This document shows, in pieces, positions 24,977 through 29,064 of a stretch of DNA of 36,348 nt. The notes beneath the pieces are model-generated. The model was not told where the DNA came from, made no database searches, and saw only the letters and a program-made list of their open reading frames with translations. The stretch's first letter is position 1, and every line of letters starts with the position of its first letter. Origin of the DNA: Candidatus Woesearchaeota archaeon (GTDB lineage: Archaea > Nanobdellota > Nanobdellia > Woesearchaeales > UBA10216); NCBI GenBank assembly GCA_002688315.1, contig NZCN01000008.1:1-36348 (forward strand), in the 5' to 3' direction. A program made the translations under genes and the position numbers.

Positions 24977-26065
24977 ATGGCATATGAAGAGCAAATTAAG
25001 GAAATAGAAGAAGAAATAAGCACTACCAAGTACAATAAGGCAACTCAGCACCATATTGGGTTGTTGAAAGCTAAAGCTGCCAGGCTGCGTGAGAGAAAAG
25101 AAGCCAGAAGCAGCGGTGGAAAAGCAGGAAGCGGTTATGGTGTTAGAAAAACCGGTGATGCCACTGTTGTTTTGGTTGGTTTTCCTTCTGTAGGCAAATC
25201 TACAATTCTGAATAAAATCACTAATGCTGAATCTAAGATAGCTGATTATGCGTTTACTACACTCACTGTTATTCCTGGAATGATGGATTACAACCATGCA
25301 AAAATTCAGGTTTTAGACATTCCTGGGCTGATAAAAGGAGCTGCTTCAGGAGCAGGCATGGGGAAAGAAATATTATCTGTGGTTAGAAGTTCGGATTTGA
25401 TTGTTTTTGTAGCAGACCCTTTTTCATTAAAGCAGGTTGAAATTCTGCAGAAGGAATTGTATAATGCAGGGATTAGGCTTGATGAAACTCTCCCAAACGT
25501 TAAGATAAAAAGAAAGGAAAAAGGCGGTGTTGATTTTGCAACCACAGTTAAACTTACTCACATTGACAGAAAGACTGTTGAGGATGTTTTAAGGGAGTTT
25601 TCATTTGGCAATGCATCAATTGTAATCAGAGAAAACATAACAGCAGACCAGCTTATTGATGCGATTCAAGGAAATAAAACTTATGTTTCTTCTTTGGTCA
25701 TAATAAATAAGGCAGATATTGCAGGCGAGAAACAGTTAAGCCTGATTAAAAAGATTTATCCAAATGCGCTTATAATGTCAGCGCAAAAAGATAGTCCGGA
25801 AAAAGTTAAAAAAGTTATTTTTGATAATCTTAAACTTATTAGAATTTACCTGAAAGAAGCAGGAAAAAAGGCAGATATGAAAGAGCCTCTTATTGTAAAA
25901 AAGAACAGCACAATAGAAGATATTTGCAGAAGAGTCCATAAAGATTTTTTGAAAAAATTCAAGAGCGCGAAAATATGGGGAAAATCCGCTAAATTCCCTG
26001 GACAAATACTTCACGGCTCGCATGTCTTGATGGACAAGGATGTTGTGCAGATAAATTTAAGATAA
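24977..26065 (+). CDS. DRG-family GTP-binding protein with TGS domain
   Basis: GFPSVGKSTILNKITNAESKIADYAFTTLTVIPGMMDY; LDIPGLIKGAASGAGMG. Confidence 0.93.
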   Translation: MAYEEQIKEIEEEISTTKYNKATQHHIGLLKAKAARLRERKEARSSGGKAGSGYGVRKTGDATVVLVGFPSVGKSTILNKITNAESKIADYAFTTLTVIPGMMDYNHAKIQVLDIPGLIKGAASGAGMGKEILSVVRSSDLIVFVADPFSLKQVEILQKELYNAGIRLDETLPNVKIKRKEKGGVDFATTVKLTHIDRKTVEDVLREFSFGNASIVIRENITADQLIDAIQGNKTYVSSLVIINKADIAGEKQLSLIKKIYPNALIMSAQKDSPEKVKKVIFDNLKLIRIYLKEAGKKADMKEPLIVKKNSTIEDICRRVHKDFLKKFKSAKIWGKSAKFPGQILHGSHVLMDKDVVQINLR

Positions 26066-26067
26066 AG

Positions 26068-27021
26068 TTATTCTTCAGGCTTTACTTTTCCTGTGGACAT
26101 TTCTTCTTCATATGTTCGTATGTTTTCTACATTGTAGCCAGAATAAGTAACTGTGGCTACTGGCTTTTCTTTTATTTTGGTTTTTTCTTCTTTTTCAGTT
26201 TTTTTAGGAACTTTAGTTTTTTTTGCTGTTTTAACAGTTTTATTTTTTTTATTTGCTTTAACTTTTTTGACTGTTTTAGTTTTTGTTTTTAGTGATTTCT
26301 TTTTTGCAGCAGGTTCAGTTGTTTCTAAAAGTGTTCCTACATCTGTAATAGTTAATTCGCTTATTGAAAGCTCAACTGCTTTTCTGCATATGTCTTCGCA
26401 ATTCTGCAATAATCTGCGAGGGTTGCCATTTGACCTCCCATATATTTCTCGTATTACATAGTCAGGAATTAGTTTAAGGTTTCCTATTCTTCTTCTAACA
26501 ACGCCAATTGCTTCTTCAGGCGCAAGGTAAGGAAGAGATATTATATTTCCGTTAAGAGAATTGTTTAAGTGGTTTGTCAACAGTTTTTTATTGTATTCTA
26601 TGCCAAAGAAAACAACTGATTTTATGTTTCCCTGCTCTAAATAGCTGGTTATTTCTTTTGCATCTTCTTTTGAAATGTTTTGAGCTTCATCAACCATAAG
26701 TATCATGTCTTCAGGCACTTGGCCAAAAAGTTTTCCTTTAAGAGTTGAATTTTTCAAAAGATCTGTTACTTCAAGGCACTCATTCTTTATGCAGCTTGCA
26801 TAAATTAATTTCTTTTTTCCGCCAAAAGTAGAAATTATGTTTTTTAACATGCTGGTTTTTCCCATTCCAAGCGGCGCTTCTATAAACTGAATTTCGTTGT
26901 TGCTTATTTTTTCAAGAACTGGCTCAACATGAATTCCTGCTAACTCATTTGTTAATACTGCAGGTTTTATGTTAAAAGGGTTTGAGGAAAAGCCAAGTTT
27001 CCAATACCATAAATCAGCCAT
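26068..27021 (-). CDS. AAA+ (GspA/ExeA-like) ATPase with Lys-rich C-terminal extension
   Basis: Walker A APLGMGKTS; Walker B MILMVDEAQ; GRSNGNPRRLL sensor-2-like. Confidence 0.75.
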   Translation of the reverse strand: MADLWYWKLGFSSNPFNIKPAVLTNELAGIHVEPVLEKISNNEIQFIEAPLGMGKTSMLKNIISTFGGKKKLIYASCIKNECLEVTDLLKNSTLKGKLFGQVPEDMILMVDEAQNISKEDAKEITSYLEQGNIKSVVFFGIEYNKKLLTNHLNNSLNGNIISLPYLAPEEAIGVVRRRIGNLKLIPDYVIREIYGRSNGNPRRLLQNCEDICRKAVELSISELTITDVGTLLETTEPAAKKKSLKTKTKTVKKVKANKKNKTVKTAKKTKVPKKTEKEEKTKIKEKPVATVTYSGYNVENIRTYEEEMSTGKVKPEE

Positions 27022-27706
27022 CTATCTCACCTAGATTTTTCTCGCTTACCACAGATTCTCCTGCTTCTGTTGCGTTTTTGCATGTTTTTCCGCAACTTTC
27101 AAGAAAAGAAACAGTGTCTTTCTTTGATTTTGCGTATATTTTTTTGATAATTTTTTCAGGTAAAAATTCGAGAGAGTTAAGCCTGTTTCTAACAAGCTCA
27201 ACAGCATCGCTTGTTGTTAGGGATTTAAGCTTTATTATGCGGTTTCCTATCCTGTCTCTTATGTTATCTGGAAGTTCAGAGTCGTTTCCTGTGAAAATAA
27301 TTGAACGCAGGTAATTGTTGTCATAGTAATATTTTGCTCTTTCAAGTTCTTTATGATTTAATTTTTTAAAGTTATCAAGCATAAGAACCATGCCTTTTGG
27401 CATTAAATTAAGAAGTTTTCCAACAATTCCGTACTTGTTTTGCATTAATTTTTTTATGTCAACTTCATCTGTATTGCAGTCAAAGTATATCACTTTGCGT
27501 TCTCCTTTAAATTTTTCAATTGCAGAAAAAAGCAATGCAGTTTTTCCTGTTCCTTTATTGCCTTCTATTAACATCATATTACCTGCTTCAATGCTGTAAA
27601 CAAGCTCTTCTGTTGGTCCGTTAAGGTGTATTGATTGCTCTATAAATGCTCCTTTTTTTGTGCTGAAAGGGTCTTCAATATAACCGTGGTTTTCATACCA
27701 GCTCAT
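27014..27706 (-). CDS. AAA+-like ATPase paralog with altered Walker B
   Basis: Walker A GNKGTGKTAL; Walker B MVLMLDNFKK (DN instead of DE); aligns in layout with downstream paralog. Confidence 0.7.
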   Translation of the reverse strand: MSWYENHGYIEDPFSTKKGAFIEQSIHLNGPTEELVYSIEAGNMMLIEGNKGTGKTALLFSAIEKFKGERKVIYFDCNTDEVDIKKLMQNKYGIVGKLLNLMPKGMVLMLDNFKKLNHKELERAKYYYDNNYLRSIIFTGNDSELPDNIRDRIGNRIIKLKSLTTSDAVELVRNRLNSLEFLPEKIIKKIYAKSKKDTVSFLESCGKTCKNATEAGESVVSEKNLGEIDG

Positions 27707-28065
27707 TGTGTCTCCGCTTTTTCTCTGTACGTGTTCGCTTTTTGATAATAATCCTCTGCTTCTTGTGGATTACCTGAATCGTGTAATTCGGATGCTTTTT
27801 TATGTAAGTCGCGCGCGCGCCTCATATTGTTGGAAGCAGTATCGCGCGTCCTGAAATAAATTATTAAAGCAATAGAAACAAGGCCTGCCAGTATTGCCAG
27901 CTTTGTAGACATGCCTAAATCTCTCAAGGAAGAAAACAGTTCAAAAATTGCCAGTTTTACGTAGCCAAAGTATGTTTGGACTGCATTTTCCTGCGCGTAT
28001 GCAGTTTTAGACAAAGCAATAGCTATTAAAAAAAGTAATTTGGATTTTATAAGCATTATTTTCAT
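27703..28065 (-). CDS. Membrane-anchored protein with cytoplasmic TPR-like helical tail
   Basis: Signal/TM LLFLIAIALSKTAYAQ, TM LAILAGLVSIALIIYF, then ARDLHKKASELHDSGNPQEAEDYYQKANTYREKAE. Confidence 0.6.
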   Translation of the reverse strand: MKIMLIKSKLLFLIAIALSKTAYAQENAVQTYFGYVKLAIFELFSSLRDLGMSTKLAILAGLVSIALIIYFRTRDTASNNMRRARDLHKKASELHDSGNPQEAEDYYQKANTYREKAETQ

Positions 28066-28173
28066 TAATACCACAGTAAAAGCTGGTTGAGATGCAGAAT
28101 AACCCATATTTAAATTTTTTAGTTTTTTGCTTTATTTTAGTTATAAGAATTGTCTGCGAAAGTAGTGAATTTT

Positions 28174-29064
28174 TTATTGCAAAGATTTAAGATACTCTTT
28201 TTTGTACTTAAATCTGTTTTGTTTTGATAATTTTTCAATTGCTTTGTCAAAACCAGAACCGTATTGTGCTGCAAGCTTTTTTCTGAAAGCAAACTGTTTT
28301 GGCAACCCGATTTTCATTGCTACTTCTCGCAATATTATTTTTTTCTCATCTTTGCTGATTTTGTATTTACCAGGAACGTTCATTGCTGCAATAATCAAAT
28401 CTTTATCCAGAAAAGGTACAAGAAAATTTGCTTTTGTTATTGTAGCTACTTTAAAATCTCTGGATAAATCTCTTGCCCACATGTTTTTCAAGCCATTCCA
28501 GCATTCTTTGTTAACATCTTTTGCGTTTTCGTGACGCTGATAGCCGGCAAATATTTCTTCGCTTCCTAGCCCGCCAAAGAATGTGTTGATTTTATCTTTT
28601 TTAGCCAGCTGAATGGCTGCTAGTTCAACTGCTGCAACACCTACATTAACTACATTTGGCTCTCCCACTACAATTACTGCTTTTTTGATTATTTTCTCTG
28701 CTTCTTTCAAACTATAGAGTTTATAACGCAGTTTCAACTTTAGTTTTTTAGCTACTTTTTTTGCTTCTGTTACGTCTTTGCTGCCTTCCATACCTACACT
28801 ATAGCATATGAAAGTTCCATGCAGTTTCTTTGCAATCAAAGAAATAGTAGAACTGTCAACACCGCCAGAAAGCATTATTCCAAATTTTTTGTTAGGCAGG
28901 CGTTTATTTACTGCTTCGATTAGCTTTTGTTGTAACTCTTCTTTTATTTGTTTTTTATCAGGATTGTAGCTAGTAGCAGCAGTTCTTAAATTTCCAATAT
29001 ATTTTTCCCAATTCTTTCTGCTGACTAATTTTCTGTTTTTCGCTATATTAGCAAGAATAGCCAT
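28174..29064 (-). CDS. Asparagine synthase-like PP-loop domain protein without glutaminase domain
   Basis: GIMLSGGVDSSTISLIAKKL; FFGGLGSEEIFAGYQRH. Confidence 0.8.
   Translation of the reverse strand: MAILANIAKNRKLVSRKNWEKYIGNLRTAATSYNPDKKQIKEELQQKLIEAVNKRLPNKKFGIMLSGGVDSSTISLIAKKLHGTFICYSVGMEGSKDVTEAKKVAKKLKLKLRYKLYSLKEAEKIIKKAVIVVGEPNVVNVGVAAVELAAIQLAKKDKINTFFGGLGSEEIFAGYQRHENAKDVNKECWNGLKNMWARDLSRDFKVATITKANFLVPFLDKDLIIAAMNVPGKYKISKDEKKIILREVAMKIGLPKQFAFRKKLAAQYGSGFDKAIEKLSKQNRFKYKKEYLKSLQ

Follow-up and report, generated by a model that had tools for sequence, protein, structure and literature searches.

A membrane-protein gene and two complementary AAA+ ATPase paralogs in a conserved cassette of one class of DPANN archaea

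Gene layout, sequence features, and fold of the ATPases

The window analyzed here is the whole 36,348-nt stretch of contig NZCN01000008.1 (contig C8), which belongs to a Candidatus Woesearchaeota genome of 912 kb that is rated 99.7% complete. It contains a cassette of three minus-strand genes, designated C, B, and A in their order of reading (Table 1). The overlaps between these genes, 4 bp for C and B (27703-27706) and 8 bp for B and A (27014-27021), had been described in a sequence-only reading of this DNA and were confirmed from the ORFs and the junction DNA. The longest ORF of C extends from 27703 to 28107 (134 aa). The shorter form of 120 aa chosen in that reading is the better one, because its start at 28065 opens a signal peptide. 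The cassette lies between an asparagine-synthase-like gene and a GTPase gene, and no DNA genes were found among its neighbors in the window. Both flanking genes are kept beside the cassette in most members of the window's family (f1) and not outside it. The order C-B-A recurs across the class and is therefore more than a chance arrangement; its presence in many genomes also rules out an assembly or annotation artifact.

Table 1. Features of the C-B-A cassette and its flanking genes, with positions in the window
Feature	Positions	Strand	Description	Basis
Gene C	27703-28065	minus	Single-pass membrane protein with TPR-like cytoplasmic tail (predicted), 120 aa	ORF; family occurrence upstream of B-A
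C signal peptide	27994-28065	minus	Residues 1-24; MKIMLIKSKLLFLIAIALSKTAYA followed by Q, ending in AYA before the Q	Read from sequence
C transmembrane helix	27853-27903	minus	Residues ~55-71; position ~45-57 residues from the C-terminus conserved in relatives	Hydropathy
C cytoplasmic TPR-like hairpin	27706-27852	minus	Residues 72-120 (49 residues); ARDLHKKASELHDSGNPQEAEDYYQKANTYREKA	Profile conservation
Gene B	27014-27706	minus	AAA+ protein without catalytic Glu, with predicted arginine finger, 230 aa	ORF; family alignment
B Walker A	27539-27562	minus	GNKGTGKT, residues 49-56	
B Walker B	27371-27376	minus	Asp111-Asn112, Asn in place of catalytic Glu	
B box VII	27239-27256	minus	DRIGNR, residues 151-156; Arg152, predicted arginine finger	DnaA profile alignment
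Gene A	26068-27021	minus	AAA+ protein with catalytic Glu, without arginine finger, 317 aa	ORF; family alignment
A Walker A	26854-26877	minus	APLGMGKT, residues 49-56	
A Walker B	26680-26703	minus	ILMVDEAQ, residues 107-114; catalytic Glu112	
A degenerate box VII	26545-26568	minus	LNNSLNGN, residues 152-159; Ser155 replacing the arginine finger	
A sensor 2	26413-26427	minus	GNPRR, residues 199-203; Arg202	
A lysine-rich C-terminal tail	26071-26313	minus	Residues 237-317; end motif NIRTYEEEM conserved in part of the family	Alignment
Asparagine-synthase-like gene	28174-29064		296 aa, without glutaminase part	
GTPase gene	24977-26065		Convergent; MMR_HSR1 and TGS domains	

The products of A and B are paralogs with 27% identity, which match each other with a probability of 100% in a profile comparison (E = 3e-68). 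The shared layout of N-terminus, Walker A, and C-terminal helices reported for them earlier is present, the N-terminus having the form W..(L)G(F/Y)..(N/D)PF. The difference then seen in Walker B, VDEAQ in A and LDN in B (within the full string VLMLDNFKK), is likewise present in the sequence. The C-terminal tail of A contains 26 K/R in 82 residues in the window, and a basic tail is missing in many lineages. B proteins of families f36, f41, f71, and some others, the window's family not being among them, carry a four-cysteine zinc-ribbon-like C-terminal segment (L047, L048, L053, L094, L096, L098, L100, L103-L109, and L112).

AlphaFold2 models of the A core (pLDDT 88.3, pTM 0.81) and of B (pLDDT 90.9, pTM 0.85) each contain a AAA+ domain, for which the nearest solved structures are ORC/Cdc6, MgsA, RFC, and RuvB. 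The structure 7jgr_A was the first match of A (E = 1.7e-09, TM-score by query 0.70) and the second match of B (E = 3.0e-09, TM-score by query 0.76). In both models the core ends after the helical lid, and a winged helix is absent. The family matches AAA_14, AAA_22, ORC-CDC6-like, and STAND-type models of Pfam; every match of the window's A is under the cut-off, and only AAA_14 passes for its B. The ORC/DnaA/clamp-loader clade usually acts by ATP-dependent assembly and conformational switching, not by threading.

Distribution and complementary decay of the paired ATPases

Searches covered relatives, the order (242 genomes), and the phylum (370 genomes), with most genomes being fragmented assemblies. 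All ATPase matches at the phylum level fall in one class. The loci examined contain 66 adjacent same-strand pairs, in which the order is always B then A and the commonest spacing is a 4-bp overlap (21 pairs). A further 22 matches are unpaired, including two A-type genes (L052 and L054) that are truncated close to the end of a contig. A and B co-occur and co-evolve; the distances in the two families correlate at 0.79, and none of 2000 permutations reached a value as high. The distribution of the pair is vertical and co-inherited, with housekeeping neighbors conserved within the family, and a search of viral contigs yielded no near relative of B. In G089 and G088 the genome contains another B-A pair that has diverged strongly (L098 13323-14920; L103 7690-9178).

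Conserved residues were counted in 154 proteins aligned to one profile. Because all A proteins go back to a single ancestor, as do all B proteins, these counts are not statistically independent and reflect the long conservation of one split rather than repeated inventions. The catalytic Glu is present in 66/66 A and 5/66 B proteins (replaced in B by Asn in 47, Asp in 12, Ser in one, and Gly in one), the box-VII Arg in 65/65 B and in 7 of the 64 A proteins with a letter at that position, and the sensor-2 Arg (GNPR) in 65/65 A and 8/65 B, while the Walker A Lys is found in both (65/65 A, 61/65 B). In a profile alignment, the box-VII Arg coincides with the Arg of "VSRFEGG" in box VII of DnaA, the position of the DnaA arginine finger, and the prediction that the box-VII residue is the finger is based on this match. 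In all 20 of the other unpaired relatives, the Glu, the box-VII Arg, and the sensor-2 Arg occur together in one chain. The sequence-only reading had reckoned with homologs that usually lie apart and with relatives in which both ATPases are catalytically complete. Neither pattern was seen, the homologs being tandem pairs in the neighborhood survey and the Glu being missing from 61/66 B proteins.

In a phylogenetic tree, the A proteins make up essentially a single clade and the B proteins another, with the other relatives outside. This tree and the alignment show that a duplication gave rise to A and B, which lost complementary catalytic parts. A composite active site, to which each putative subunit would contribute what the other lacks, is well supported by the comparison. 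B had been described as "regulatory or nucleotide-binding"; a merely regulatory role is improbable, since B retains the arginine finger that A lost and therefore probably contributes to catalysis in trans. Some lineages show an incomplete split. In genus g198 of family f82 (L125, L127, and L136), B still has the Glu and A has an Arg close to the finger position, and A of family f36 keeps the Arg. Family f86 has C together with a single full-set ATPase, which is sister to the A clade (SH-aLRT 91). This form could be the pre-duplication state or a lineage that lost B, and the tree fits either.

Unpaired full-set relatives of ~245-385 aa that have no C gene occur at L055-L058, L098 (147-1214), L138, L140, L145, and L146. 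Several of them end in a stretch that looks like a winged helix, and the group may represent a separate DNA-binding branch of the family.

Membrane protein C and its outer part

The signal peptide, membrane helix, and TPR-like tail previously read from C are real features, with the reservation that the tail is short, consisting of a single helical hairpin, and that its Pfam matches to TPR, MIT, and DUF1771 are all below the curated cut-offs (TPR_1, 17.1 bits vs. 27.8). The tail profile matches designed TPR proteins, and the TPR matches are stronger than those to MIT (2jqh, E = 0.048). Positions occupied by A, H, G, Y, R, and A are invariant or near-invariant in the profile. The tail is ~45-57 residues long in nearly all C proteins, and ORF lengths range between 64 and 2303 residues. 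In 40/49 proteins the flank of the helix toward the tail carries the more positive charge, which favors a cytoplasmic location of the tail.

A profile of the membrane helix and tail placed C directly upstream of B in 44/66 pairs, and also directly upstream of the single full-set ATPase in f86. For the other 22/66 pairs C was not detected with this profile, and some of these have a large secreted protein just upstream. The tail is found in 41/59 genomes with the ATPase vs. 2/311 others (370 genomes; p ~9e-38, uncorrected for phylogeny).

The part of C outside the membrane differs greatly among lineages. C of the window has almost no outer part, hence a surface client is not visible there, and C proteins in other genera of the window's family have Cys-rich segments. 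In f41 and f24, and by eye at L050 of f22, C takes the form of a large surface protein with 500 to 2,300 residues. Ig, PKD, or InlB-type repeats are present in the four giant C proteins that were scanned, and one genome (G058) has two giant C proteins, each with its own B-A pair. In f82, the gene immediately upstream of C-B-A or B-A codes for a secreted protein of ~610-690 residues. The outer parts of C and these upstream secreted proteins suggest a surface-client role, and we infer that the ATPase may serve a surface protein as its client.

Several other arrangements were seen upstream of the pair. Two more surface-type proteins (L125 8532-11161 and L127 5069-7688) have a membrane helix followed by a "GWSDxxIxxAL" cytoplasmic tail. 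In G041 (L051 8296-10029), the place of C ahead of one pair is taken by a lipoprotein whose repeated segments are thioredoxin-like and contain CPFG, and at L091 6114-12441 (G115) ten consecutive similar lipoprotein-like ORFs of ~200 aa precede C-B-A.

Proposed mechanism, alternatives, and known systems

The reading preferred here, with a probability of roughly 0.6, is that C-B-A encodes a membrane-tethered heteromeric AAA+ ATPase of the ORC/DnaA/clamp-loader clade, in which A would hydrolyze ATP with the help of an arginine of B in trans, C would recruit the enzyme, and the client would be at the cell surface. A would bind ATP and provide the general base, and Arg152 of B would supply the arginine finger to this ATP. 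The two proteins would be adjacent in a ring or partial ring. B is predicted to bind nucleotide without turning it over, so that the enzyme would be active only as a mixed complex. The constant cytoplasmic hairpin of C may recruit the ATPase to the membrane, with the variable outer part of C either being the surface client or binding it. In the least certain step, an ATP-driven conformational change, as opposed to threading, might assemble, cluster, activate, or reset the surface protein. The idea of a heteromeric ATPase held at the membrane was already part of the sequence-only reading, and a heteromer located there through C is supported by the comparison of pairs, split residues, and the upstream position of C. 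Among the roles then suggested (secretion, surface assembly, or DNA transactions), that at the surface is backed by the giant Ig-like C proteins; a DNA role has on its side only the similarity in fold and a basic tail confined to some lineages.

The same features can be arranged in other ways. A hypervariable outer part of C joined to a constant inner tail would also suit a signaling switch, in which an outside contact or ligand, sensed by C or by a C-bound protein, would be relayed through the TPR-like tail to A and B acting as a STAND/ORC-type nucleotide switch, with a cytoplasmic signal as the output. Members of the A family match STAND-type and ORC-CDC6-like Pfam models, and the solved structures closest to A and B are those of AAA+ proteins of the switch and loader types. 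However, the cassette has no effector domain, the zinc ribbons on some B proteins being the only extra domain seen, and an outer sensor part is missing altogether from many C proteins. We consider such a switch rather unlikely. A machine that tethers or moves DNA at the membrane through an initiator- or loader-like ATPase, for instance in chromosome segregation or DNA uptake, is considerably less probable: although the nearest folds are those of ORC/Cdc6, RFC, RuvB, and MgsA, the window's A has its lysine-rich tail, and some unpaired relatives end in an apparent winged helix, A and B themselves contain neither a winged helix nor another known DNA-binding domain. In addition, the basic tail is not general, the window neighbors are not DNA genes, and the Ig-like outer domains of C proteins point outward.

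Pseudo-ATPase partners are common in AAA+ families, and B might accordingly be a pseudo-enzyme scaffold that only positions a homomer of A, with another arginine completing the site in place of a composite one. The seven A proteins that keep an Arg at the finger position would agree with this, but retention of the finger in 65/65 B proteins with its loss from most A proteins is unexpected of a mere scaffold, and we regard this explanation as improbable. Less probable still is a membrane-anchored ATPase that docks to the proteasome by an HbYX-like C-terminal end and serves membrane protein turnover. B ends in AE(K/R)YY at eight class-level loci, and A ends in ELYY or QYY at several f82 loci; each of the eight genomes with the AE(K/R)YY ending has it a single time, at B, the reversed control pattern gave no match, and proteasome-family genes are present in 29/30 genomes tested. 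Yet the window proteins and most pairs have no such ends, KYY lacks the hydrophobic residue, the readable Cdc48 and PAN proteins of these genomes end in -Y(Y/F/M/L)G-like sequences or MYG, and the AAA+ clade of A and B is not known for unfolding. The B proteins concerned carry EDIAE(K/R)YY at the end of a disordered tail (L115, L116, L117, L119, L123, L126, L128, and L135), and the ELYY/QYY ends of A in f82 are at L125, L127, L130, L131, L133, L134, L136, and L139. Candidate ligands of the -YY end motif are the TPR-like tail of C, the proteasome, or another partner.

A tethered heteromer of A and B makes a residue-level prediction, that A would be inactive without the arginine of B and that B would be unable to hydrolyze ATP without the glutamate of A. 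The f86 form, with a single ATPase and the same membrane partner, offers a natural comparison for the passage from a homomer to an obligate heteromer. If the client is a surface protein, DPANN surface and attachment biology would become open to experiment. A broader proposal, which we hold to be unlikely in its full extent, is that one DPANN class has in C-B-A a dedicated transmembrane machine, coupling cytosolic ATP hydrolysis to surface proteins that include 2,000-residue Ig-domain ones, so that attachment proteins might be assembled, clustered, or switched in tiny, presumably host-dependent cells. A search of the open-licence literature found no description of the C-B-A system, nor of a comparable machine at archaeal surfaces, and a paper on archaeal dark matter names a few DPANN-specific families, none of them recognizably C-B-A (PMC6393860). 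The cassette is a class-wide conserved and apparently undescribed operon in poorly understood archaea.

The view that no named system has this composition still holds, as no curated family or named system matching C-B-A was found in Pfam, curated models, or PADLOC. The GspA/ExeA, MshM, and XrtA/PEP-CTERM ATPases (AAA_22 group) resemble the ATPases of the cassette in an N-terminal G(F/L)..(N)PF layout and, for A, in a DEAQ Walker B, and there are weak AAA_22 and TIGR03015 matches; GspA-type ATPases consist of one subunit, whereas A and B are two complementary ones. The standard GspA or TniB module that the earlier reading had allowed for was rejected, GspA on scores and missing domains and TniB on neighborhood and distribution. 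For the GspA/ExeA secretion ATPase, AAA_22 scored 20.1 bits vs. 27 and TIGR03015 15.6 vs. a cut-off of 324.5, the hhalign probability with E. coli K-12 GspA was only 15-17%, and Pfam detected neither a membrane domain nor a peptidoglycan-binding one in A and B, A ending instead in its lysine-rich tail. Similarity to TnsC is at the level of the P-loop (E = 0.002), and TniB/TnsC was rejected on the lack of a nearby transposase, the conserved housekeeping neighbors, the vertical distribution, and the failure to find viral relatives of B. A known anti-phage defense system was also rejected, the PADLOC matches being partial and confined to the P-loop region (e.g., AbiO positions 161-298 of 468). 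With respect to STAND NTPases, nSTAND matches are sub-threshold, and A and B of the window have no attached domains.

Vps4/MIT and TPR adaptor systems place a short hairpin of the TPR/MIT kind beside a AAA+ protein, as the C tail would do, but the MIT domain of Vps4 belongs to the ATPase itself, whereas in C-B-A the hairpin is on a separate membrane protein. ORC (Orc1/Orc4), archaeal Orc1/Cdc6, and RFC share the AAA+ fold of the initiator/loader clade with A and B. In ORC only the Orc1/4 and Cdc6/Orc1 sites are active, and ORC thus resembles A and B in being a heteromer of paralogs in which only some interfaces are catalytic (PMC7450096). The putative A/B site would work like that of Orc1/4 without A and B being ORC members, and unlike ORC, Cdc6, and RFC, C-B-A has no winged helix, clamp, or DNA gene context and has the membrane partner C instead. 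The heteromeric AAA+ ATPase Pex1/Pex6 is brought to a membrane by Pex15/PEX26, a small adaptor that spans it once (PMC9265785). This is the same layout as that proposed for C-B-A, which would work like the peroxisomal system without being related to it: Pex1/6 are double-ring threading unfoldases with an active Walker B in both D2 domains, whereas A and B are single small AAA+ domains (230-317 aa) of another clade.
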